Origin: Calliopum simillimum
Taxonomy: Eukaryota; Arthropoda; Insecta; Diptera; Lauxaniidae
Reading direction: 5' to 3'
DNA: 64,000 nucleotides
Assembly (NCBI GenBank): GCA_951812925.1
Contig: OX638372.1
Location: 64,497,407 to 64,561,406 of the forward strand
The translations under genes were made by a program, and so were the position numbers. The notes below the pieces were generated by a model. That model ran no database searches and was not told the origin of the DNA. It worked only from the letters and a program-made list of their open reading frames with translations. Positions 18,424-60,674 of the stretch are shown here, piece after piece (the stretch's first letter is position 1; every line of letters starts with the position of its first letter).

Positions 18424-20002
18424 ATGGCTTGCAAAATAAACAACTTTTGTTACGTTTGTGGCCATTTCACACCAAAAATGTCGAAACATGGTTCTTTTAC
18501 AGAAGAATTTATAGCCGCTTACGAAAAATATTTTAACCATTCCGTTATTTCTAATGTACCATGGGTTCCAAAAGTTGTTTGCAAAAACTGTTATACTAAT
18601 CTAATAAGTTGGATGAGTCGAAGAATTAAAAAAATGCCTTTTGGAGTGCCGATGATCTGGATAAATCCAAATGGACATGACCCCTCAAATTGTTATGCTT
18701 GTGTGAATTCCGAAACTGGTATGAACAAAAGAAAAATGAAAAGTAAAATTTACAAAAGCGTTCCAAGTGCTCAAATTCCAATGGAACACTCAGAAAATGT
18801 TCCAGTCCCGAAACCTCCAAGCCCGGACGTGACATCAGGGATTACGATAATAACTGATTTAGATGAAGCTTTATCTATTTTTGCGCCTGAGCCCACTAAG
18901 TCAAACGATCCTATACTGATAACACAAAACCAGATGGATTTTATTGTTGCAAAGCTTGGATTGTCACAACGCAAGTCAGAAGAACTAGCTAGATTTTTAA
19001 ATACAAATCATCTCTTGGCAAGTGGGACAAAAATTTCAGCATACAGACATCGACAAGCAACTCTGCAAGAATGTTTTATTGTAAATAACGAGCAAACAAC
19101 TGCTTACTGCACGGATGTCGAAAAACTTATGTGCAAAATGGACATTCGCTACAATGCTGATGAGTGGAGACTATTCATTGATAGCTCCAAAAATAGTTTG
19201 AAAGCTGTGTTGCTTCATCAGACAAACTCAAAACCTTCGGTACCAATTGCCTACAGTGTAGACACGAAAGAGACTTACGAGTCGTTAAAAACTATTCTCC
19301 AAGAAGTAAATTACAACAAACATCGATGGAAAATATGCTGTGACTTAAAAGTAGTGGCAATTCTTCGAGGGCTGCAATCAGGATATATTAAATACATGTG
19401 TTTTTTATGTGACTGGGACTCCAGATATTCGGGTGACCAGTATACAAATCATTCCTGGAAGTGTAGAGAATTGAGCAAACACGCTAATGCCAACGTCATT
19501 GAGGATCCTCTGGTACCCCAAAACAAAATTTTGTTACCTCCTTTACATGTAAAACTTGGTTTAGTGAAAAGCTTTCTAAAAACTGTGGCTAAAGGAGAAG
19601 AAGTTTATACTGTTTTAGCACAAATTTTCCCCCGACTTTCAGAGAGTAAATTAAAAGAAGGTAAAAACATTAAATTAACATATTTTACTTCACTAAAATA
19701 TTATATATGTAAAAATGTAAAAAAATATTATATTGCATATTGCTTTTCATCCTCTAGGTGTTGTAAATGGCCCAGACATTCGAAAACTTATCAAAAATCA
19801 AACATTTGATAATGTCTTAAACACAAACGAATTGCTAGCTTGGCGTTCCCTCAAAGATGTTATAAATGGATTTTTGGGAAAAAAGAGGTCTGAGGACTAC
19901 CAGAGCTCTGTTAACACGATGATGAATGCTTTCTCCAAACTACGTGTTAACATGTCGTTAAAAAAATCATTTTTTTTTTTATTTATTTCTTTATATAGTT
20001 GA
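18424..20002 (+). CDS. Transposase-like protein of the unclassified transposon, C-terminus missing
   Basis: Exon 18424-19660, intron 19661-19757 (GTAAAA...CTCTAG), exon 19758-20002; 493 residues. Residues 1-105 form a cysteine-rich N-terminus (CYVC at about 9, CKNC at about 55, FGVP, then CYAC at about 83), probably zinc-binding. A central part reads DEWRLFIDSSKNSLKAVLLH, IAYSVDTKETYESL, WKICCDLKVVAIL, then YMCFLCDWDSR and LLPPLHVKLGLVKSF. Asp residues in FIDSS and CCDLK are candidate catalytic acids (inference). I remember this architecture from uncharacterised insect and hydra repeat proteins. In those the region MSLK is followed by a long part with HSHLDFF, which is absent here; instead a T-rich tail reaches a stop at 20002. 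So this copy is probably deleted at its 3' end and non-functional, although the rest is open and the intron is intact. Confidence 0.65.
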
Positions 20003-48355: not shown

Positions 48356-48705
48356 ATAAATATTTATCTTTTTAAAATATAATAAAGGAACAAAACATAT
48401 TTTTAATAAAATCTCTACATTTAAATCATATAATCGATTTTTTCTTTAGAAGTTTAGTACAAATATGATTTTGCAGATATGGACCACTGCACGATTTTTC
48501 GTACAGGGCGTAACTTTTAAAAGGGGCGGGAACAACAATTTTTTTATTTTATTTTTGAAGTGAGGAAGCTTTAACTACTAATTACTCCAAAAATCTTCAA
48601 AAAATTCCAAGCGGTTCTGGTACCTGTTCAAAATGGGTTAATCGATTCACCTGAAATTTACTTCAAATCATCCTTAAATTAAATTGCATAGGTTAGGCTA
48701 TACAC

Positions 48706-49318
48706 GAAGGTTTCCGAAGATCACCCGAAGGCTTCATGATCAAAACGAAGAATATCTGGATATACTAGAGAGAAAACATCTGTGGCACACTACCAACAAT
48801 CCTTAACTGATATTTTTCTCTGACACTCGAAGGTCCTTGAAGGTCACCCGAAGGTTTTACAGTCAAAACGAAGAATATCGAAGTATTCGAGAGGGAAAAA
48901 GTCTTTAAAAAAATTTTAATTAACAGTTTCCCGTGACACTCAAAGGTTGCCGAAGGTCACCTAAAGGCTTCATAGCCAAAACGAAGAATATCTAGGCATA
49001 TTACAGGCAAAACATCTGTGGCGAACTATCAACAAGCCTTAATTGATAATTTTTTGGAATAATCGAAGGTTCCTGAAGGTCACCCGATGGTTTCATAGTC
49101 AAAACGAAGAATATCAAAATGCACTACAAGAAAAGCATCTATGGCGAACTATCAACAAGCCTTAATTGATAATTTTGTGGAATAATCGAAGGTTCCCGAA
49201 GGTCACCCGATGGTTTCATGGTCAAAACGATGAATATATAAATGTACTACAAGAAAAGCATCTTTGGCGAACTATCAACAAGCCTTAATTGATGGATTCC
49301 TGGGACACCCTAGCTAAG
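48706..49318. repeat. Tandem repeat of 113-123 bp, five units
   Basis: Units start at about 48706, 48829, 48942, 49065 and 49188. Each contains CGAAGGTTCCCGAAGGTCAC, CAAAACGAAGAATATC and CGAACTATCAACAAGCCTTA. It begins directly after the piggyBac-like element and ends just before the Helitron remains. Confidence 0.85.
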
Positions 49319-49631: not shown

Positions 49632-50565
49632 ATGTCTCCCAAAAAACGAGCGCTCGGTCGTTTTACGTCTCAAGCACGACAGAAAAAGGCAAAACGAAAC
49701 TCAGAAACAAACGAACAACGAGAAGCGAGATTGGAATCCGACCGAGAGCTTCATGCTCAAGCGCGTTCATTGGAAACTAACGAGCAACGAAATGCAAGAT
49801 TAGAAACCGACCGAGAACTTCATGCTCGAGCCCGTTTATCGGAAACAAACGAGCGACGAAATGGAAGATTGGAATCCAGCCGTGAAGTTCATGCTCGAGC
49901 ACGTTCATCGGAAACAAACGAGCAACGAAATGCATCGTTCATCGGAAACACACGTGCAACGCGAATCCAGACTGCTTACCATCCGAATGTACACTGCTCG
50001 AGCAAGACGAACTACTCACGCTGACTTATATCCCAGTGCATTCCATTAAGAATGAATCACCAGGAATGTGCTGTGCTGGTGGAAAAGTTAAATTACCAGA
50101 ATTACATCTACCACCCGAACCATTAACAAAGTTGGTATCAGGCGACACGAGCGAATCAAAACATTTTTTAACGAAAGTACAAGGTAAAATATATCATCAT
50201 GCTGGATCATTACTACCATTGCCAGATACGGACCATAAATTTCTTCAAATTTATTTCATGGGAAGCACAGATGAACAAATAGATCAACGTTGTCGATACA
50301 ATACGGGCACTAGACGAGAAGTTGTCGCTGCATTACAAACTTTATATCATCAACATAACGAATTGATTCAATTGTTTAGAACTGCCCTTGACAAAATGCC
50401 AGCAGATGAGTACAGAGTTATAATAAGAGCAGATAAAACACCTGTCGGACAACACGAAAGACGATACAATGCACCAACAATTGACGAAGTGGCGATCGTT
50501 ATAGTTGGCGAAGAATTTAACGCATGTGATATAATTCTTCATCGCAGAAATGGTAATGTTCAGCG
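49632..50565 (+). pseudogene. Helitron Rep/helicase N-terminus, broken
   Basis: The ATG at 49632, just after a possible acceptor TGTGCAG, opens MSPKKRALGRF followed by five diverged 23-residue repeats of the type ETNEQRNARLETDRELHARA (about residues 24-115), an N-terminal region known from insect Helitron proteins. The frame shifts at about 49935 and again near 50040, where HADLYPSAFH is followed by NESPGMCCAGGKVKLPELHL. After SGDTSESKHFL a stretch is missing before KVQGKIYHHAGSLLP and FLQIYFMGS. The part to about 50560 (VIIRADKTPVGQHERRYNAP, IDEVAIVIVGEEF) lies before the Rep catalytic domain. Rep HUH and helicase domains are absent, so this is a truncated dead fragment. Family assignment is firm from these conserved stretches. 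Confidence 0.8.
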
Positions 50566-50885
50566 AGTCGCAAATATTTTTTTTTTTTTACAGAATGAAC
50601 TCCTTAGTAACAAATTAAAAACAAAAAATTTAAATCATTAAAAGAAAACATTTATAAATTAAAAAATAAATTAAAAACAAATTAAATTTTAAAAAAATCA
50701 TTCCCATTGATTTATTTTTATACTAAGTCAGAAAGATCAAAAATAAGGTAGAGCTCGCAAACTATCGATAGTGGACGATAGTTTGAGATGGTTTAAAATG
50801 AAATTAACTTTTCCATAATACAGTGGTATAAATGAACGCTATTATCTATATCTTATAAGCTATTGGGAATGAAAAAACAAAACAA

Positions 50886-50917: not shown

Positions 50918-51016
50918 TTTCCAATAAAATATTGGTAATAAAAATGTGACAAAGAAATTAATTACACTGTACAACAAAATTTTTTGTAAATCAGGCGAAG
51001 AAGTTATTAGAATGGT

Positions 51017-51628
51017 TGTTTACGTGGAAACGTAAACCCTTATAAATAAAAGAAAAATGTATCGTGTTTATACGGATACATAAAACCACCCCTTGTAAAT
51101 CTTTACAAAAATCCATGTTTTTCATCTAAACGATGGCAACCCTATCCGTCTTCAGTATTTGGTACCTGACTGCCGAAAGTATAGCCGTCTCGCTCGCTCT
51201 GGTGTAAAAACCATTGCTGACAACTTTCGATCAGTTTTTTGATCGACGAATACAGAAAAATATTCTGTCATTCGTTGAGTACAAAAGCAAGCTGCAAGCA
51301 GCAAATTTTGCTAAACTTATATAAAATAGATTTCTAAAAAAAAAAAAAACTAAATTAAATTAAAAAGTAAGCTTAAAAATAAAGTGCTGCCCACAAACTT
51401 ACAAACACAAAAAGTGTTTTATTGTTTTATTGCTCTAAAGTGGAGCCAAGGAACTTGTGATCCAGACGACGTGTCAAGAGCGGTCTCCGTAGAAGACCAG
51501 GGATTTTTGCTTCTCCCGTCGAAGGGGTACTCCATCGCCGCCTACAGTGGGCAGAACAGGTATTGTCACCGTTGAAATACTCAATATTTTAAAATACAAA
51601 AAAAACAAGTTTGGTGCCCGACCAAACA
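51017..51628 (+). repeat. 5' LTR of the BEL/Pao element
   Basis: 612 bp, TGTTTACGTGG... to ...GACCAAACA. It opens with a palindrome (TTTACGTGGAAACGTAAA). Promoter-like TATAAATA at about 51042 and TATATAAAA at 51318-51326; AATAAA at 51378-51383. Against the 3' LTR it differs by four substitutions (at about 51127, 51173, 51365 and 51530) and one extra A in the run near 51598. The 63-codon frame inside both LTRs is not a gene. Confidence 0.95.
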
Positions 51629-51630
51629 TT

Positions 51631-51648
51631 TGGTCCTTCGGCCTCCTT
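51631..51648 (+). promoter_or_regulatory. Probable primer-binding site
   Basis: TGGTCCTTCGGCCTCCTT starts two bases after the LTR end with TGG, the complement of a tRNA CCA end. The matching tRNA cannot be named from the sequence alone. Confidence 0.5.
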
Positions 51649-52182
51649 GTGCCAGACCCATTTATTTAAAAAAAAAATTTTTTAATTTTTTACGGCATAC
51701 GCCATATTTTATTACCCGCGAAATTTGTGCGTGTGTGTGACCTTTCAAGTTGTTGAAGGTTACCACAAACCCTCGTGTTTTTTTTTACATAACTCTTTTT
51801 GTATATGTGTGTTTAACCTGTGTGTTGCTGAAGGTTAACACAAACACTCGTGTCTTATAGTTTAACCTTTAATTTGTTGAAGGGTAAATAAAATAACTCA
51901 ATTTTGAGTAAACTTCAGGATCGTTGAACGTTAAGTAAAATATCGTGAATTATTTGACAACAGTGAACAAAGTTTTTGAAATTTCGGTTGGTAAATTGGG
52001 TTTTAAATTTGAACATCAATTTTTGAGTTGGCTCTGCGCAGTTTCTCGTGACACTTTTCTTGTTTTTTCTTCGGAAATTTTTTCTTACAATCGTTGTAAC
52101 GTTTTGATCACGTACACAGTGCTTCACCCATAGATAAGTTTTTGATCGTTTTGTGTGGATTTGAACTTCACTTTAATACAAT
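51649..52182 (+). other. Leader of the BEL/Pao RNA with repeated hairpins
   Basis: Four diverged copies of a small stem follow each other: GACCTTTCAAG/TTGAAGGTTAC at about 51741, GTTTAACCTG/CTGAAGGTTAAC at about 51815, GTTTAACCTT/TTGAAGGGTAAA at about 51861 and a weaker one near 51908. They alternate with CACAAAC.CTCGTGT. They may serve packaging, dimerisation or start-site choice (inference). Short upstream frames occur. Confidence 0.55.
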
Positions 52183-55100
52183 ATGGATACTTTATTGAAA
52201 AAATTGGCTTTCCAAAAAGTGTTAATTTTAAACTTCAAAGCAAATACGCGCAAAGTAGGGCAAGCAAATTTAGGAAAAGGCACTCTAGAATCGCGTCGGG
52301 ATCTCCTCAGTCAGTATTGGTTAAAATACGAGACACTGTTCGGGGAGCTTTCAATGACCCATACGAATGAAACTGAGGTAAAAGCTTTGATAGCTGATGG
52401 TGAATACTATTCTGTGGAGGGTGTCTATACTGACACGATGGGTGAGTTAAGAGACATGCTTGCAGCGCTTGAACCACCACAAGTACCACCACGTGCACCG
52501 AGTGCAAACTCGTCAATATTCGACCAAACTGCAATTATTCCTGCATTGACAAATTTGCCGAGAATAAAAATTCCGCCATTTAATGGCACGTATTCTCAGT
52601 GGTATCCTTTCAAGGATCTCTTTGTCTCAATAGTCACTTCTAATAGTTCTTTAACTAATACCCAAAGACTTCAGTATTTGAAAGACAGTCTTACGGGAGA
52701 CGCTCGTCATGCATTAGACAATATCACCACCACAGAATCTAATTTTAAAACCGCTTGGGATCTGCTAGAGCGTAAATACGATAATAAGCGAATAATAATA
52801 AATGCTTATCTCACAGAGATTATGAATTTAGCCCCAATTTCAAAAGAATGTGCATCAAGTTTGAGAAAACTTATTGATGGGATTTCATCTGCAGTCCGTG
52901 CTTTAGAGCAACTTCAGCGTCCAGTTGAGCACTGGGATGATTGGCTAATTTTCATTACGGTTCAAAAACTTGATCCGTCTACGCGAAAAGCTTGGGAGCT
53001 TTCACTTAAGACAGACTCTGATGTTCCAGCTTTTAAAGAATTAACTCGTTTTTTGGAAAACCGCACTCAATCCCTTGAAGTCTTGCAGTGTTTTGGAGAT
53101 GCCAAGTCGGATAAAAAGGCACATTCAGAAGTAACTCCTAAGCGCGTAAACCCATTCCGATCGTTTCACAATAATGTTGAAGTCCCTAAATGCGTGTTAT
53201 GTAATTATACACATCCACTACGTTTTTGTTCCAAATTCCTTAAACTTAGTGTTCAAGATCGATTTTCCTTAGTGAAAAAACATCAGTTCTGTATAAATTG
53301 TTTAGCTTTTTCTCACGAGTTGAAAGACTGTAAAAGTTCGTACACTTGTGCTAAATGTCAAAAGAAACACAATACACTGTTGCATAAAGAAAATGCATCA
53401 ATGGGTCAAAATGTAGCAAACAATAAAAGTTTTTTAAATAATAAAAGTTTTTCAAACAAACCCGCATTTCAAAACAAAGGTGACAAGGCACACAGTTCTG
53501 CTGTCACTTATACCTCTACCATACAGTCCACTACAGAAAAACCGACTTCGTCGGAAAAATTATCTACGACAACAAACCCTATGGGTACAGTAAACACCCA
53601 GTTTACGTCAGCCACTAAAAAGGTTATCCTTGGAACGGCTTTGATTGATATTTATCATTTGGGTTCAACTTATAAGGCTCGCGCCTTGATTGACCCTGCT
53701 TCTGAATGCAGCTTCGTGTCAGAACGCATTCAACGCTTGCTTAAGCTTTCGACGAAACCCATTTCAGCCCAAGTTACGGGACTGAATGGGACAGTCAATA
53801 CTCTACCGAATATGATGGCTTCTTTCCATATTGGTTCTAAGTTATATCGAAAAGATCCAATCGAAATCATTGCTCTGGTTGTCCCAAAAGTGACGCAAAA
53901 TTTACCATCGCTTAATTTTGACGTCTCTAATTTTTCAGAGATGCCTAACTTTGCATTCGCTGATCCGAACTTTAATCGAAGTTCAGTTGTGGATCTACTC
54001 ATCGGTGGCGATTTATACCCTTCAATACTTCTTGGTGGGGTTCAAAAAGACGTTTTTGGATCTCTCATAGGCCAAGAGACCATTTTTGGATGGATCCTTA
54101 CAGGACCAGTGCCAATACAGCATCAAATGCTCCCTTTAAAAGTTGCTTCACATTTCACAGAGATTTCTCTGAATGAACAACTTAAAAAATTTTGGGAAAT
54201 TGAAGAAATCCCAGAAAAATCGTCAATCTCCAAAGCCGATGAAATTTGCGAGCAAATTTATATCAACACAACAAAACGGAATTCGGATGGTCGATACGTT
54301 GTTGATTTACCCTTCAAGCTAGAATTTCCAGTCTCTAAATCTTTAGGCCAAACAAAATTCATTGCTAAAAGCCAGTTTCTTCGAAACGAAAAACAACTCT
54401 TCAAGAAACGTGAACTTAAGTCTCAGTATGACAATGTTATATTAGAGTATTTAGGACTTGATCACATGGTTGAAATTGACCCTAATAGTTTTCAAGAAAA
54501 TGTTTCTTATTATTTACCTCATCATGCTGTGCTAAGACCAGATAGCGCTAGCACAAAACTTCGTGTTGTTTTCAACGCTTCGTGTCCCTCTTCAAACTCA
54601 AATAGTTTAAATGATGTCCTATACACTGGACCAGTACTCCAAAATGATTTAGTCTCACTTATTCTTAAGTGGCGATTATTCGAATTTGTCTTTAATGCTG
54701 ACATTCAGAAAATGTACAGACAAATTTTGGTTAACCCTGATCAAACTGCCTTTCAAAGAATTATATTTCGAGCAAACCCAAACGAAGAGCTAAGAGAGTT
54801 TGAATTAAAAACGGTAACGTTTGGTGTAAACTGTGCACCCTACCTAGCAATTCGTACGTTAATAAAGTTAGCTGATGATGAACAGCATCGATTCCCTTTG
54901 GGCTCAGAAATTTTACGTGAACACATGTACGTTGATGACGTATTGGCTGGATCTCACGATCTTGTGTCAGCAAAAAATTGTCGTGATCAACTAAATAATA
55001 TTTTACTCTCAGCAGGGTTTGAATTACGAAAGTGGACATCGAATTCAAAAGAACTACTTTCTGACCTTCCTCGAGATCATTTACTAAACACTGAATTTCT

Positions 55101-57483
55101 TTCTTTGGAGGACAAAAGTTTAGCGAAAACCCTTGGAATTCGCTGGAATGCAAAGCATGACTTCTTCTATTTTAATGTTCAGCCCCTTGAATATAAACCG
55201 AATTATACTAAACGCGAAGTTTTGTCTACAATCGCAAAATTGTTTGACCCGGTAGGTTGGCTTTCGCCAATTATTATCACAGCAAAGATAATTATGCAGC
55301 AGCTCTGGCTGGAAAAAACTGATTGGGACGAATGTATTAAAGTCCAATCACTGCAAAAGTGGCACTCTTTTATCGAAAGTTACGATAAAATTAATGACAT
55401 TTCATTACCACGATGGGTAAATTTTTCACCCGCAAGTAAAATTGAATTTCATGCTTTCTCAGATGCTTCTGAAAAAGCATATGCAGCTGCAGTCTACATT
55501 CGAGTGGAAACTCAAAACTGCATTTTTACTCACTTACTTACTTCAAAATCGAAGGTATCACCAGTCAAAACGATTTCTCTGCCCAGACTGGAGCTGTGTG
55601 GCGCAGTTTTGCTGGCAAAACTGGTCAGCTCTGTGATCCCGCAATTAAAGCTTAATAATTTTTCAATATTCAAATGGACGGACTCGACAATTGTGCTTTC
55701 ATGGTTGCAAAAACCTCCATGCACCTGGAAAACATTCGTGGCAAACAGAGTCACTACCATAATTGATAAGTTGGGCATTGAAAATTGGGCTCATGTTGAT
55801 ACCCGGGACAACCCCGCCGATCTAGCAACCCGGGGGCTATCTCCTTCGGATCTTAAAAGTAATGAACTGTGGTGGAATGGTCCTTCTTGGCTAAAACTTC
55901 AAAAATCTGACTGGCCAAAACCTTCACTTGTGGTTAAAAATGGCACTAACCTTGAAATCAAACTCGTCAAGTCTTTCATTACTAGCTCGGCGGTAAAAGA
56001 AGATATTTTGAATCGTTTTTCTTCCTTGCCTAGAGCTATTCGAGTCATCGCATATATGTTCCGATTTTTTAATCGCACTCGTCGAACTGTGAATTCATAC
56101 TCCTCTGATAAGATTTCTTCTGAGGAACACAAATTTGTTAAAATGAGACTTATAAGAGTGTCTCAGCAAATTTACTTTCACACTGAGTACTTTCATTTAC
56201 TTAATAAAAAACCCATTGAATCTAAAAGTTCTTTGCTAACTTTAACTCCGTTTCTGGATAGAGAAAATATCTTAAGGGCAAATGGTCGCCTTGCATCTTC
56301 TCCAGCTTTAAGCTACAATGAAAGGCATCCTATTATACTCGCGTACGAGAGCCGTTTTTCCCGAATATTCGTAGAATTTCTTCATAATATCACTCTTCAT
56401 GGTGAAAATCAGCTAGTTCTTCGCCTAGCTCGTCGCGATTTTTGGATACTTAAGTTAAAGAATTTGATAAAAACTTGTATCCACAATTGCAAGACATGTG
56501 TCATCAACAAAAAGCGTTACCATGGTCAAGTTATGGCTGCCTTGCCTCCTGAGCGCGTAACCATAGCGCGTCCTTTCACTAACACAGGCGTTGACTTTGC
56601 GGGACCCTTTGACATAAAGAGTTTTACTGGTAGATACTGTAAAATCACCAAAGGATATGCTTGCCTCTTTGTCTGCTTCTCTACAAAGGCCATCCATCTG
56701 GAACCTGTAAGTGATCTGACGTCCCAGTCGTTTTTAGCAGCTCTTTCGACATTCGTGTCCAGGAGAGGCTGTCCTGAAAATCTATACTCAGATAATGGCA
56801 CAAACTTCGTGGGCGCAGCAGGAATGCTTAAAAAAGACTTTAAGCTGTTTCTACAGACAGCAAGGGACGACACCGTTGCAAAGTATGGCTACCACCAACT
56901 TTCATGGCGCTTTTTACCGGCCTCAGCACCTCACATGGGCGGCTTATGGGAAGCCGGCGTAAAATCATTTAAAAAGCACTTCAGAAAAATCACTGGACAC
57001 CTGAAGTATACATTCGAAGAATTTGCCACGGTACTCGCGAGAATAGAAGCTTGTCTCAATTCGAGACCACTCAACGCTGCGTCTGAGAACGTAGCTGATT
57101 TGGCTGTGCTGACGCCAGGACACTTCCTAATTGGCGCCCCATTGTTGTCTCCAGCAGAACCAGAAGACACAACTTCAACCATCAGCATCTTGAACCGCTG
57201 GCAGAGGGTCAAGGCCACAGCCCAAGAGTTTTGTCGTCGTTGGAAGGACGAGTACCTGAAAGAGCTACTAAAGCGAACCAAATGGAAGGTCGCAAAAGAT
57301 GATCTAAAAGTCGGAGACCTCGTTGTCATACGTCATGAATCACTCTGTCCTACAGAGTGGAAGCTCGGTCGCATCACAAAAATCTTCCACGGCTGCGATG
57401 GAAAAGTCAGGGTGGCAACTTTAACAACAAATTCGGGTGAGATCACACGACCGATCCATAAGCTCGTAGTGATTCCCCAATAA
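52183..57483 (+). CDS. gag-pol: BEL/Pao gag-pol polyprotein, 1766 residues, intact
   Basis: One open frame from the ATG at 52183 (context CAATATGG). DUF1759 gag domain about residues 120-270 (IPPFNGTYSQWYPFKD). Three zinc knuckles at 337-401: C-x2-C-x3-H-x4-C from C337, C-x2-C-x4-H-x4-C, and C389-x2-C-x3-H-x4-H401. A17-type protease about 480-645 with D504 in LIDPAS and a closing FGWILTGP. Reverse transcriptase about 760-990, with RVVFNAS at about 794 and YVDD at 916-919. RNase H about 1085-1235 with FSDAS (D1094) and WTDST (D1167). Integrase zinc finger about 1390-1450, core with D1471 (GVDFAGP), D1537 (YSDNGTN) and E1590 (GGLWEAG); C-terminal DUF5641-like domain to the end. Gag and pol are in a single frame with no stop or shift, so protease cleavage must free the parts. 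It supplies particle, replication and integration functions. No broken catalytic motif was seen. Confidence 0.97.
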   Translation: MDTLLKKLAFQKVLILNFKANTRKVGQANLGKGTLESRRDLLSQYWLKYETLFGELSMTHTNETEVKALIADGEYYSVEGVYTDTMGELRDMLAALEPPQVPPRAPSANSSIFDQTAIIPALTNLPRIKIPPFNGTYSQWYPFKDLFVSIVTSNSSLTNTQRLQYLKDSLTGDARHALDNITTTESNFKTAWDLLERKYDNKRIIINAYLTEIMNLAPISKECASSLRKLIDGISSAVRALEQLQRPVEHWDDWLIFITVQKLDPSTRKAWELSLKTDSDVPAFKELTRFLENRTQSLEVLQCFGDAKSDKKAHSEVTPKRVNPFRSFHNNVEVPKCVLCNYTHPLRFCSKFLKLSVQDRFSLVKKHQFCINCLAFSHELKDCKSSYTCAKCQKKHNTLLHKENASMGQNVANNKSFLNNKSFSNKPAFQNKGDKAHSSAVTYTSTIQSTTEKPTSSEKLSTTTNPMGTVNTQFTSATKKVILGTALIDIYHLGSTYKARALIDPASECSFVSERIQRLLKLSTKPISAQVTGLNGTVNTLPNMMASFHIGSKLYRKDPIEIIALVVPKVTQNLPSLNFDVSNFSEMPNFAFADPNFNRSSVVDLLIGGDLYPSILLGGVQKDVFGSLIGQETIFGWILTGPVPIQHQMLPLKVASHFTEISLNEQLKKFWEIEEIPEKSSISKADEICEQIYINTTKRNSDGRYVVDLPFKLEFPVSKSLGQTKFIAKSQFLRNEKQLFKKRELKSQYDNVILEYLGLDHMVEIDPNSFQENVSYYLPHHAVLRPDSASTKLRVVFNASCPSSNSNSLNDVLYTGPVLQNDLVSLILKWRLFEFVFNADIQKMYRQILVNPDQTAFQRIIFRANPNEELREFELKTVTFGVNCAPYLAIRTLIKLADDEQHRFPLGSEILREHMYVDDVLAGSHDLVSAKNCRDQLNNILLSAGFELRKWTSNSKELLSDLPRDHLLNTEFLSLEDKSLAKTLGIRWNAKHDFFYFNVQPLEYKPNYTKREVLSTIAKLFDPVGWLSPIIITAKIIMQQLWLEKTDWDECIKVQSLQKWHSFIESYDKINDISLPRWVNFSPASKIEFHAFSDASEKAYAAAVYIRVETQNCIFTHLLTSKSKVSPVKTISLPRLELCGAVLLAKLVSSVIPQLKLNNFSIFKWTDSTIVLSWLQKPPCTWKTFVANRVTTIIDKLGIENWAHVDTRDNPADLATRGLSPSDLKSNELWWNGPSWLKLQKSDWPKPSLVVKNGTNLEIKLVKSFITSSAVKEDILNRFSSLPRAIRVIAYMFRFFNRTRRTVNSYSSDKISSEEHKFVKMRLIRVSQQIYFHTEYFHLLNKKPIESKSSLLTLTPFLDRENILRANGRLASSPALSYNERHPIILAYESRFSRIFVEFLHNITLHGENQLVLRLARRDFWILKLKNLIKTCIHNCKTCVINKKRYHGQVMAALPPERVTIARPFTNTGVDFAGPFDIKSFTGRYCKITKGYACLFVCFSTKAIHLEPVSDLTSQSFLAALSTFVSRRGCPENLYSDNGTNFVGAAGMLKKDFKLFLQTARDDTVAKYGYHQLSWRFLPASAPHMGGLWEAGVKSFKKHFRKITGHLKYTFEEFATVLARIEACLNSRPLNAASENVADLAVLTPGHFLIGAPLLSPAEPEDTTSTISILNRWQRVKATAQEFCRRWKDEYLKELLKRTKWKVAKDDLKVGDLVVIRHESLCPTEWKLGRITKIFHGCDGKVRVATLTTNSGEITRPIHKLVVIPQ

Positions 57484-57697
57484 ATTTATATTTATATATA
57501 TTGTTCCTTATGACTTTGTTGAAAATAAATGCTTTGTAACCTATAAACACTCTCTTTTTGAACTATACAGAAATAATTTATTGTTTTAAACTCACACAAA
57601 AACACACTCAACAGAATAAAATATATCACAGGTGAACGTAATAATTAACACCGTTGGAATCTTTATCTGTCTACACCAGTCGAATTTATAAACAGCC
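57484..57697 (+). promoter_or_regulatory. Spacer between gag-pol and ORF2 with polyA-like box and splice acceptor
   Basis: AATAAA at about 57523 follows the gag-pol stop by some 40 bases. Further on, CTTTATCTGTCTACACCAG (about 57660-57678) is a pyrimidine-rich acceptor 19 bases before the ATG of ORF2, which has a good start context (CAGCCATGG). This suggests that ORF2 is made from a spliced subgenomic RNA, as retroviral env genes are. The donor is not identified. Confidence 0.45.
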
Positions 57698-58570
57698 ATG
57701 GCTCCAGTTACCAAAAAATGTTCTTCGGCCTCGTGTCATTGTTGTCGCAACCAAAACAAAAGCGAACATAGGACCCGTACTTCCCACATTGAGCACAAAA
57801 ACACCAAACACGCCGTTCGACATGTTGCATGTGGCATCTGCAAAAAGGATCACCGTCTATCAACATGCTACAAATACCGTGAGATGAATTTGACCATGAA
57901 GTACGAAACGGTCATCAGCATGCATTATTGCATCAATTGCTTGGCTCGGTCTCACAACATTAAAAACTGTATCAGCCATGATAAGTGCGCAATTTGTCAC
58001 GCAAAACATCATACCAGCCTGCATGGTCATCCTCGTGTGATTGCGGCTGCACATCAAGATTCACGTGATACTCGGTCTACCAACCAAATCAGAATAGCAT
58101 GCTCTAACCAGACTCTGTTACCTACAGCAACACTAAATTTGTACTTTGATGGTGAATACCAGACCCTCAGGGTGCTTATAAATCCAGCAGTAGCAGTAAC
58201 AACAATTGCCTCCGACATTGTGAAAAAACTGAAGATAAAACTTATCTACGTTGAGTCTCAAAGATTATGCAATATTGTGGTTGGCTCCAAAATAAATCCA
58301 AACTTTAAACTGGAGATAAGCGCTCTAATTAGCAATGAGCTTCCAAAAAGGATCTATCAAAAAGATCTTCCGGACGGCGCCAGAAGAGCGTACAACAACA
58401 TTATGCTAGCTGACCAAAATTACACATCTTCATCCAAGATTGACATGATCCTCGGTGCCGATATTTACCCGCGGATAATGAAATCCGGATGTATGCCTTC
58501 GGAAAATGGAAGAATGTTGGCGCAAAATACAGTTTTCGGCTGGATTGTGTCTGGTCCATGTGGACTATAA
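57698..58570 (+). CDS. Extra BEL ORF2: zinc knuckles plus pseudo-protease, 290 residues
   Basis: Residues 1-44 hold a small Cys cluster (CHCC at 13-16). Zinc knuckles follow with the same three-part spacing as in gag-pol: C45-C48-H52-C57, C78-C81-H86-C91, C97-C100-H104-H109. Residues about 143-288 match the A17-type protease of pol: LRVLINPAVAVTTIA, then KIDMILGADIYPRIMKSG (248-264) and QNTVFGWIVSGPC (276-288). The protein ends there, at the point where pol goes on to reverse transcriptase. N162 stands where pol has D504, so cleavage activity is not expected. No gag DUF1759 part, no membrane segment, no signal peptide, so it is not an envelope protein despite its env-like position. Possible roles are RNA binding, assembly modulation or dominant interference with Gag/protease (inference). 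Open frame throughout. Confidence 0.88.
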   Translation: MAPVTKKCSSASCHCCRNQNKSEHRTRTSHIEHKNTKHAVRHVACGICKKDHRLSTCYKYREMNLTMKYETVISMHYCINCLARSHNIKNCISHDKCAICHAKHHTSLHGHPRVIAAAHQDSRDTRSTNQIRIACSNQTLLPTATLNLYFDGEYQTLRVLINPAVAVTTIASDIVKKLKIKLIYVESQRLCNIVVGSKINPNFKLEISALISNELPKRIYQKDLPDGARRAYNNIMLADQNYTSSSKIDMILGADIYPRIMKSGCMPSENGRMLAQNTVFGWIVSGPCGL

Positions 58571-58813
58571 AATATCTTGTATTACATATGAATTAAAATG
58601 TATATGACCCAAGAAATGAATTATAGCTCTAAGACCCTTATCAAACAATGTATATAACTATATACCTCCAACCATTTATGAATAAAGAAAATGAATTATG
58701 TTGAATATTTTGATCTTTATTGACCCATGTGTATACGCATGTTTATCTAAACTCTCAAATTTCATTCAGTGAGTAATTTTAGTTTCTTCACACTTTTACT
58801 TATTCTTTTTAGT
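58571..58813 (+). promoter_or_regulatory. Spacer between ORF2 and ORF3 with polyA-like box and strong splice acceptor
   Basis: AATAAA lies at about 58681. The pyrimidine tract TTCTTCACACTTTTACTTATTCTTTTTAG ends at 58812 (given here in parts: TTTTACTTATTCTTTTTAG), and one base later comes the ATG of ORF3. This is a strong acceptor placed directly at the start codon. Confidence 0.5.
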
Positions 58814-59560
58814 ATGTCGCAACAGGTACAAAAGCGCGATCGCCTGGCGTGCCCCATGTGTAAGCAATACCATGGACTTCGATCTTGTGACCGCTTTCTG
58901 ATGTTGAAACGTGAGGATCGGTCGCAAGTGGTGCTCATCAATGGGCTGTGCAAAAACTGTCTCGCATACACCCATAAGACGGAGCGATGTCCGAGCAAAA
59001 GCAGATGCCTTGAGTGTCAACAAAAACACCATACTTTGATACACGACAGACTCGCTATTGCCCACCAATTCGAAAAGCTACTGGATTCTGAATTTGTGTA
59101 TTTGAAAATGACAGCAAATGTCATTGTGAATGATGGCCCTGTGCTGCGAGCGCTCATCAATCCAAACCAGGAAACATCCACCATAACAATGGCGAAAGTC
59201 CGAAGCATGGGTATTCCTTTAATTCAAGCGGCAACAAGCGACGCTGGGACTTGTCATCTTGCGCTAAGTTCCTTTCAAAACCCTAACCAGGGTCTGACCG
59301 CATGCTTCAGCGTGCTGAAGGCTTCCCATGGGAAGCTACCGCTTGCTCGTGCCAACCGAACTGGCATCAACCAATTTTTTAAAAACTTGTGTCCAGCAGA
59401 CCGTTATTTTTATAAGCCCCTTGAGGTTGACATAATACTCGGGAGGGACTTGTATCACAAGGTGATTAAAAGCGGAAAGCGGTTCATACCTGGAGTGCCT
59501 ACGGCGCAGGATACCCTCTTTGGGTGGACATTTACGGGGCCGTGCCCTCGTGAAAATTAA
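58814..59560 (+). CDS. Extra BEL ORF3: zinc knuckles plus pseudo-protease, 248 residues
   Basis: I take the ATG at 58814 (MSQQVQKRDRLACPMC) because it directly follows the splice acceptor; the frame extends 15 codons upstream to 58769 without family similarity. Zinc knuckles: C13-C16-H20-C25, C46-C49-H54-C59, C65-C68-H72-H77. Protease-like region about 98-243: VLRALINPNQETSTIT with N116 where pol has the catalytic Asp, EVDIILGRDLYHKVIKSG (204-221) and QDTLFGWTFTGPC (232-244). It ends at the protease end like ORF2. ORF2 and ORF3 share this architecture but differ in most residues, so their split is much older than this copy. A second acidic position (D205/D211 region) is kept in both. No transmembrane segment. 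Function unknown; likely nucleic-acid binding. Confidence 0.87.
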   Translation: MSQQVQKRDRLACPMCKQYHGLRSCDRFLMLKREDRSQVVLINGLCKNCLAYTHKTERCPSKSRCLECQQKHHTLIHDRLAIAHQFEKLLDSEFVYLKMTANVIVNDGPVLRALINPNQETSTITMAKVRSMGIPLIQAATSDAGTCHLALSSFQNPNQGLTACFSVLKASHGKLPLARANRTGINQFFKNLCPADRYFYKPLEVDIILGRDLYHKVIKSGKRFIPGVPTAQDTLFGWTFTGPCPREN

Positions 59561-60058
59561 AAAAAAAATGGCGTGTCAAATTATAATAATCTAAGTATAT
59601 ATAAGTACACATCGTAGTTAAAATGAATTTCTTTTGTTATTTTTTATAAAAGCCAAACGGCAACGTAAAAAAAAACCATTAATTCTCTTTAAATTTTTGT
59701 ATCTCACTCTGAATTTAATAATTTTCAATATAACTTTCATTTAAATTTGAATTTAATAAGTTAATTTTCTCGAGCAACTTTTCCCAAACCTTTGGTTAAG
59801 TTGCCATTTTTATCGTTGTATTACATTTTGTATCAACTCTATTTTAGTATTTATCTTATACTTTATTTTAAAATGTAAGCCTTCTAAATACTATTAACTT
59901 TATATAATTGATTTTTTTACAAACAAAAAAAAACCTTTGTTTTCAGAATAAACACTTACTTGTACACATGAAAAACAAAAAAGATACTCTTCTTTCCATT
60001 ACAAAGGAATACACAGGAAAGCAAGCTCTTTGTTGCAGATACTGCAAGGCGGGCAGTA
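59561..60058 (+). other. 3' non-coding region of the BEL/Pao element
   Basis: AT-rich, no frame with features. The last bases before the 3' LTR include GCAAGGCGGGCAG (60045-60057), a short purine-rich stretch in the position of the plus-strand primer. Confidence 0.6.
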
Positions 60059-60669
60059 TGTTTACGTGGAAACGTAAACCCTTATAAATAAAAGAAAAAT
60101 GTATCGTGTTTATACGGATACATAAAACCACCCCTTGTAAATCTTTACAAAAATCCATGTTTTTCATATAAACGATGGCAACCCTATCCGTCTTCAGTAT
60201 TTGGTACCTGACTGACGAAAGTATAGCCGTCTCGCTCGCTCTGGTGTAAAAACCATTGCTGACAACTTTCGATCAGTTTTTTGATCGACGAATACAGAAA
60301 AATATTCTGTCATTCGTTGAGTACAAAAGCAAGCTGCAAGCAGCAAATTTTGCTAAACTTATATAAAATAGATTTCTAAAAAAAAAAAAAACTAAATTAA
60401 ATTAAGAAGTAAGCTTAAAAATAAAGTGCTGCCCACAAACTTACAAACACAAAAAGTGTTTTATTGTTTTATTGCTCTAAAGTGGAGCCAAGGAACTTGT
60501 GATCCAGACGACGTGTCAAGAGCGGTCTCCGTAGAAGACCAGGGATTTTTGCTTCTCCCGTCGAAGGGGTATTCCATCGCCGCCTACAGTGGGCAGAACA
60601 GGTATTGTCACCGTTGAAATACTCAATATTTTAAAATACAAAAAAACAAGTTTGGTGCCCGACCAAACA
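60059..60669 (+). repeat. 3' LTR of the BEL/Pao element
   Basis: 611 bp, same ends as the 5' LTR, four substitutions and one A-run length difference from it. Followed by the duplicated ATGGT. Confidence 0.95.
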
Positions 60670-60674
60670 ATGGT

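Follow-up and report, generated by a model that had tools for sequence, protein, structure and literature searches.

Two Genes Related to the Nucleocapsid–Protease Module Occupy the env Position of a BEL/Pao Element in the Fly Calliopum simillimum

A 64,000-nt stretch of the Calliopum simillimum genome (contig OX638372.1; hereafter the window, to which all coordinates are relative) was analyzed in this study, which revealed a complete BEL/Pao long terminal repeat (LTR) element whose gag-pol gene is followed, in the env position, by two further open reading frames (ORFs), ORF2 and ORF3. We consider it slightly more probable than the opposite that BEL elements of Diptera harbor an ancient gene family, represented here by two diverged paralogues, which arose when the nucleocapsid–protease (NC-PR) module was duplicated into the env position and which now encodes a flapless retropepsin scaffold that does not cut and bears RNA-binding zinc knuckles. 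Such genes would constitute a new accessory class, serving either as a cofactor of the genomic RNA or as a switch of the element's own protease (PR).

Accessory Genes in the env Position

Both frames are intact and lie 3′ of a likewise intact 1766-residue gag-pol (Table 1). ORF2 encodes 290 residues from an ATG, and ORF3, located 3′ of ORF2, encodes 248 residues from an ATG or 263 from an upstream GTG. An initial annotation of this region had described two intact frames of these lengths behind an intact gag-pol, each with a three-part zinc-knuckle block and a terminal FGW..(S/T)GPC motif and neither with a membrane segment, and this description agrees with our results. Three zinc knuckles are present in each product, with 12 of 12 ligands kept in each, and the C-termini consist of FGWIVSGPC plus two residues in ORF2 and FGWTFTGPC plus four in ORF3. 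The two frames stop where gag-pol, after FGWILTGP, reads through into the reverse transcriptase (RT). A membrane-type hydrophobic segment is absent as judged from Kyte–Doolittle maxima over 19 residues (1.47 for ORF2, 0.89 for ORF3, and 1.19 for ORF3 from the GTG), a dedicated predictor not having been used.

Derivation of both genes from the gag-pol NC-PR module is supported by sequence comparison (BLASTP). The element's own NC-PR matches ORF2 with 25% identity over 306 aa (E 3e-31), its NC matches ORF3 with 41% over 73 aa (E 6e-17), the tail of its PR matches ORF3 with 38% over 56 aa (E 2e-10), and ORF2 and ORF3 match each other with 30% over 254 aa (E 7e-30). Both products are basic. Pfam returned no domain in ORF2 and chance-level matches only in ORF3 (E 0.14), and the capsid domain DUF1759 was found by Pfam in neither.

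An env identity of the two genes was considered and rejected for lack of a hydrophobic segment, as were chance ORFs, in view of the NC-PR homology and conserved zinc ligands. Functionless remnants, whether of a decayed env-like gene or of chance ORFs, would fit the location after pol, which is the env slot, but the same three observations make this reading very improbable. A structural role, in which both products would be minor components of the virion that take the place of NC or add to it, their protease-derived domain being inert, is consistent with the intact NC knuckles and with the stop at the PR/RT border, by which the module equals the end of Gag-Pro. However, without a capsid domain in either ORF such proteins would need to be recruited, and we regard this role as rather unlikely.

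Loss of the Catalytic Aspartate and the Flap

The protease motif reads LIDPAS in gag-pol, LINPAV in ORF2 and LINPNQ in ORF3, and the catalytic Asp is replaced by Asn in both accessory products (Asn162 in ORF2 and Asn116 in ORF3). Neither this replacement nor the missing flap segment, found in both ORFs, figured in the initial annotation. We aligned 19 rows, namely eight accessory rows (ORF2, ORF3, five ORF2 relatives and one Musca protein) and 11 gag-pol rows including the element's own. Asp is present in all 11 gag-pol rows and Asn in seven of eight accessory rows, the exception being Musca. The flap stretch between fixed columns comprises 16–18 residues in 8/8 accessory rows (16 in ORF2 and 18 in ORF3, with approximately 10–13 residues missing) and 28–29 residues in the nine gag-pol rows that span it. 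Counted directly in the unaligned sequences, the spacing between the Asp/Asn and a later hydrophobic-Gly motif is 92–95 residues in 8/8 accessory rows (92 and 95 in ORF2 and ORF3) and 102–106 in 9/9 gag-pol rows; rows P0006 and P0007, which end within the flap stretch (after 17 and 27 residues), were set aside from both counts. A Cys stands beside the gap in all eight accessory rows versus one of the 10 gag-pol rows that have a residue in this column.

The missing stretch is assigned as the flap from its location behind the active site, from the models, and from a Gly-rich GIG-like motif in gag-pol, which we take to be the retropepsin flap motif. Because both the flap and the catalytic Asp are missing, the ORF2 and ORF3 domains should not cut protein, and by sequence their protease is dead. 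The protease block named in the initial annotation is present, but its likeness to the A17 family did not hold: Pfam Peptidase_A17 corresponds to gag-pol residues 1009–1168, behind the RT, and the block itself is retropepsin-like.

The ORF2 model has a retropepsin-like beta fold that lacks the catalytic Asp and flap hairpin of active retropepsins. Its nearest solved fold is the retroviral-like protease domain of Ddi1/Ddi2, which is an active host protease domain (7–13% identity to Ddi1 structures in the aligned part), and dimeric D26N protease of Mason–Pfizer monkey virus (M-PMV) is among its structural neighbors. The ORF3 protease domain was assigned by homology. Sequence searches of the PDB gave 11 weak matches for the NC-PR profile (E 0.04–0.94), including retroviral nucleocapsids, and two weak matches for ORF3; BFVD gave 14 matches (E ≤ 0.001), several of which are named aspartic proteases.

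Relatives and Descent of the Module

The initial annotation had proposed searching with both translations. Among approximately 5.8 billion proteins, ORF2 has five matches of 40–49% identity, comprising two contig-derived proteins and uncharacterized proteins of the tephritids Bactrocera dorsalis (LOC125779389), Zeugodacus cucurbitae (LOC128922577), and Anastrepha obliqua (LOC129250352), the latter three being 40–44% identical to ORF2. All five have Asn in place of Asp and no flap. Because ORF2 relatives occur in fruit flies, ORF2 and ORF3 look like accessory genes rather than debris.

A profile of the NC-PR set gave 22 matches, one of which, a Musca autumnalis gene model (P0012), shows the same order as the C. 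simillimum element. It contains a gag match (residues 104–254) and an integrase C-terminus match (204–357, the ranges overlapping; 41% identical to gag-pol 1589–1733), behind which lies a flapless NC-PR (384–615); the model ends before the FGW end. Since P0012 is a gene model, its exon joins are predictions, and the database entry probably represents a transposon recorded as a host gene. Of the genera concerned, Musca belongs to the calyptrate flies and Anastrepha to the acalyptrates.

The 19 rows were also used for a tree. Six profile matches (P0018–P0023) were excluded by eye because NC or most of PR was missing, an exclusion that was uneven in that P0017 (no NC), P0006 and P0007 (PR mostly missing) were retained; the label gag-pol for the ten outside rows refers to adjoining gag and/or pol sequence in the same protein, recognized by Pfam or by eye. 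ORF2 and its five relatives form a group with support of 99/96, and the nearest kin of ORF2 are thus proteins of other genomes. The accessory rows and the element's own NC-PR fall on one side of a branch (67/83), which makes the element's own lineage a possible donor.

The initial annotation had suggested tandem capture or duplication of the NC-PR module, of which the origin from the module is borne out by homology and the tandem copying is not. Joint recent copying of the element's own NC-PR into both genes, which would group ORF2, ORF3, and the own module, was rejected (approximately unbiased test, p 0.0004), as was ORF2 plus ORF3 as the closest pair (p 0.0086, to be read with care given the long branches). 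Single placements are unsure because of such branches (ORF3 3.7, Musca 3.5). One older duplication or capture is weakly favored as the origin because the flap loss and the Cys are common to the accessory rows, and the flap loss may predate the Asp loss because the flapless Musca protein has Asp. The simplest reading is one old copying with early flap loss, a later Asp-to-Asn change and an old split between ORF2 and ORF3.

Selection and Expression Signals

Codon positions 1, 2 and 3 of ORF2 and ORF3 are identical at frequencies of 0.47, 0.50, and 0.29 over 240 codons, compared with 0.26, 0.26, and 0.245 in shuffled pairs. Against the element's own NC-PR, the corresponding values are 0.41, 0.54, and 0.30 for ORF2 and 0.36, 0.52, and 0.28 for ORF3. 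When random mutation of ORF2 was simulated at rates set by us, the frame stayed open in 0 of 400 runs at 48% amino-acid identity and in 1 of 400 at 70%. These values indicate that purifying selection has long acted on the protein following the split, which is not evidence for present action in this copy, and the inference is affected by predicted-protein databases, which favor open frames. Together with the homology, the kept ligands and the ORF2 relatives in other flies, the codon-position signal agrees with the view in the initial annotation that these frames are conserved rather than chance passengers.

An old capture from another BEL element or from a host, with the genes now riding by chance in a copy that amplified recently, would account for the deep divergence from the own NC-PR; with nearly identical LTRs, a young copy would appear intact regardless. 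The codon-position signal and the full-length fly relatives nevertheless require selection, though perhaps outside the element, in tephritid host genes, and we consider this capture improbable.

Possible splice sites were ranked by a simple scoring with consensus weights. Acceptor-like sites 5′ of ORF2 (57679) and ORF3 (58812) rank 37 and 36 of 405 AGs; among 313 GTs, the best donor-like site before 52400 ranks 7 (51884), and rank 3 lies inside gag (52442). Bacterial models, which have little meaning for an animal, gave four promoter-like sites (4.9 in shuffles) and three terminator-like sites (1.0 in shuffles) in 57484–58814. Within 57484–60058, AATAAA occurs between ORF2 and ORF3 at 58681–58686 and also at 57524, 57615, 58291, and 59947; the copy at 58681–58686 might end an ORF2 transcript, and the motif is expected to be frequent in AT-rich DNA.

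Possible Function of ORF2 and ORF3

We rank a genomic-RNA cofactor first and a trans-dominant brake on protease or assembly second. Our tentative proposal, with a probability somewhat below even, is that a BEL/Pao lineage of Diptera has long carried ORF2 and ORF3 as true accessory genes and that these act as genomic-RNA cofactors. Both proteins would be made in trans, probably from a subgenomic RNA like that of an env gene, and, as basic proteins that bind RNA, would assist the element. In this scheme the zinc knuckles would bind the element's genomic RNA, and dimerization or partner binding would be scaffolded by the pseudo-protease, which perhaps docks on Gag-Pol. Export, packaging, or translation of the RNA or the assembly of particles might be affected as a result, as for CERV of Cer1 with a different protein. 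Because both genes are old and diverged, their roles are probably split.

Several observations weigh against this proposal and the single ancient family behind it. Zinc knuckles alone do not demonstrate specific RNA binding, and acceptor-like sites as good as or better than those 5′ of ORF2 and ORF3 occur at approximately 8% of element positions. ORF3 has no close relative, its search giving two gag fragments only; the same layout outside this element was seen in one gene model (P0012), whose flapless domain retains Asp (DSG); and the tephritid ORF2-like proteins could be host genes rather than element genes. A branch with support of 70/55 separates the eight accessory rows from the others, a value that is weak for a single origin and changes to 90/87 without the Musca row, 68/48 without ORF3, and 86/78 without ORF3 and two short gag rows. 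Moreover, the tree is compatible with a grouping of the own NC-PR with ORF3 (p 0.20) or with the ORF2 set (p 0.14), and as these groupings survive the tests, two separate origins are compatible with it as well.

Alternatively, the products might act in trans-dominant self-limitation or timing, a reading we consider possible but clearly less probable than the cofactor. Retropepsins act as dimers with one Asp per half. A pseudo-protease paired with a Gag-Pol protease monomer would form a one-Asp dimer, and the knuckles would compete with Gag for genomic RNA, so that maturation would be delayed, copy number capped, or rivals excluded, as with Ty1 p22/p18 in idea. The Asn in both ORFs suits a mechanism in which dimeric retropepsins need Asp from each half, as does the dimeric M-PMV D26N protease among the structural neighbors of ORF2; moreover, the Ty1 Gag fragment p22/p18 is described, in the part of the source available, as disturbing particle function (PMC8458377). 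However, heterodimers are doubtful at approximately 25% identity to the own NC-PR, and a simple dead-monomer inhibitor would not need the prior flap loss that the Asp-bearing Musca protein suggests.

Element Architecture and Neighboring Sequences

The element spans 51017–60669 (9.65 kb), and its LTRs, which have TG..CA ends, are identical in 607 of 612 columns (four mismatches and one gap). Because the LTRs are near-identical and a 5-bp target site duplication flanks the element on both sides, the copy is young. Its dimensions lie within the limits for BEL/Pao (LTRs 0.2–1.2 kb, element 4.2–10 kb; PMC8742986). The single gag-pol frame contains, in order, Pfam DUF1759, RVT_1 (below cut-off), Peptidase_A17, Integrase_H2C2 (below cut-off), and DUF5641, and has the BEL/Pao domain order of PR, RT, RNase H, and integrase with BEL-type Pfam domains; a separate Pfam match was obtained for neither RNase H nor the integrase core. 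A second copy was not found in the window by tblastn with the three element proteins or by blastn with the LTR, no relatives with DNA were found in the viral or genome contig collections searched, and Rfam and tRNA scans of the window gave no matches.

Table 1. Features of the BEL/Pao element and its flanks, in window coordinates.
Feature	Position	Strand	Basis
Target site duplication, left copy ATGGT	51012..51016	.	flank sequence
5′ LTR, 612 bp, TG..CA	51017..51628	+	blastn self-comparison
gag-pol, 1766 aa (DUF1759 capsid, NC, PR, RT, A17, integrase, DUF5641)	52183..57483	+	
gag-pol zinc knuckles, three, 12 ligands	53191..53385	+	
gag-pol protease, active-type, Asp at residue 504 (LIDPAS), flap segment present	53617..54111	+	
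ORF2 accessory gene, 290 aa	57698..58570	+	
ORF2 zinc knuckles, three, residues 45–109	57830..58024	+	
ORF2 flapless pseudo-retropepsin domain, Asn162 for catalytic Asp	58109..58561	+	
ORF3 accessory gene, 248 aa from ATG	58814..59560	+	
ORF3 zinc knuckles, three, residues 13–77	58850..59044	+	
ORF3 flapless pseudo-protease domain, Asn116 for Asp	59096..59548	+	homology, approximate limits
3′ LTR, 611 bp	60059..60669	+	blastn self-comparison
Target site duplication, right copy ATGGT	60670..60674	.	flank sequence

Just 5′ of the element, at 49632–50641, are two frames (130 and 201 aa) that resemble the N-terminal part of a Helitron-type protein; the first contains a coding stretch of 69-bp tandem repeats, and the second has weak Pfam matches only. 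The BEL/Pao element may thus lie beside or inside an older transposon. A 207-nt direct repeat occurs in three overlapping copies at 48700–49265, two of which are 77% and 75% identical to the first, and a 461-aa open frame at 18424–19809 has a weak zf-AD match below the cut-off (E 0.0046).

Comparison With Known Systems

The Belpaoviridae profile of the International Committee on Taxonomy of Viruses lists gag and pol together with an env-like gene whose function is not known (PMC8742986). The element described here resembles these BEL/Pao elements (Semotivirus) in its LTRs, in a gag-pol with capsid, NC, PR, RT, and integrase, and in an extra gene slot after pol, but differs in carrying two extra genes that are NC-pseudoprotease paralogues without a hydrophobic segment, whereas the profile names gag, pol, and env only (PMC8742986). 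In the available text of a survey of metazoan BEL/Pao elements, the words zinc and duplicat- do not occur (PMC3118150), nor do zinc and protease in the available portions of two articles about extra reading frames in plant elements (PMC7264820, PMC11963269); the accessible part of the Troyka element paper offers a general listing of proteins added to LTR elements (PMC12440569). The initial annotation had been aware of no described element arranged in this way. Among the matches listed from the open-access literature, Repbase not being covered, no description of a knuckle-pseudoprotease gene layout was found; however, databases already contain ORF2-like proteins under the name "uncharacterized protein" (Bactrocera, Zeugodacus, and Anastrepha). 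These tephritid proteins share the domains, the Asn for Asp, and the missing flap with ORF2, and differ in being predicted proteins only.

The MDG1-group elements (412 and others) are also insect LTR elements without env that carry two accessory genes, sORF1 and sORF2; these are, as far as the consulted sections describe them, small (63–107 aa for sORF2-like proteins) and upstream of gag, and sORF2 is transmembrane and fusogen-like (PMC11952523). Copy number control by Ty1 p22/p18 is similar in that a Gag-derived product acts in trans on its parent element. According to the excerpts available, p22 is identical to the C-terminal half of Gag, with a capsid-like core (PMC8458377, PMC4599808), whereas ORF2 and ORF3 are separate, diverged genes without a capsid domain.

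The nearest system in idea is CERV of Cer1, a Ty3/gypsy element of Caenorhabditis elegans, which is likewise a non-env gene in the env position. In the part of that paper at hand, the N-terminal half of CERV is partly shared with gag, the protein is needed for genomic RNA export, and it contains a GTPase-like domain without catalytic residues; different from ORF2 and ORF3, CERV belongs to another element family, has other folds, and is spliced to gag exons, with no knuckle-protease module reported there (PMC10309623). The same text notes that many env-position genes of LTR elements, above all in plants, have no clear homology or function (PMC10309623). For ORF2 and ORF3 the origin is legible, namely a copied NC-PR module that has lost catalysis and flap and kept fold and knuckles. 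If the proposed function is true, the element would have built a regulator from its own parts, a natural pseudo-retropepsin would be at hand, and the uncharacterized fly proteins would be explained; the question of self-limitation also becomes testable in an animal LTR element.
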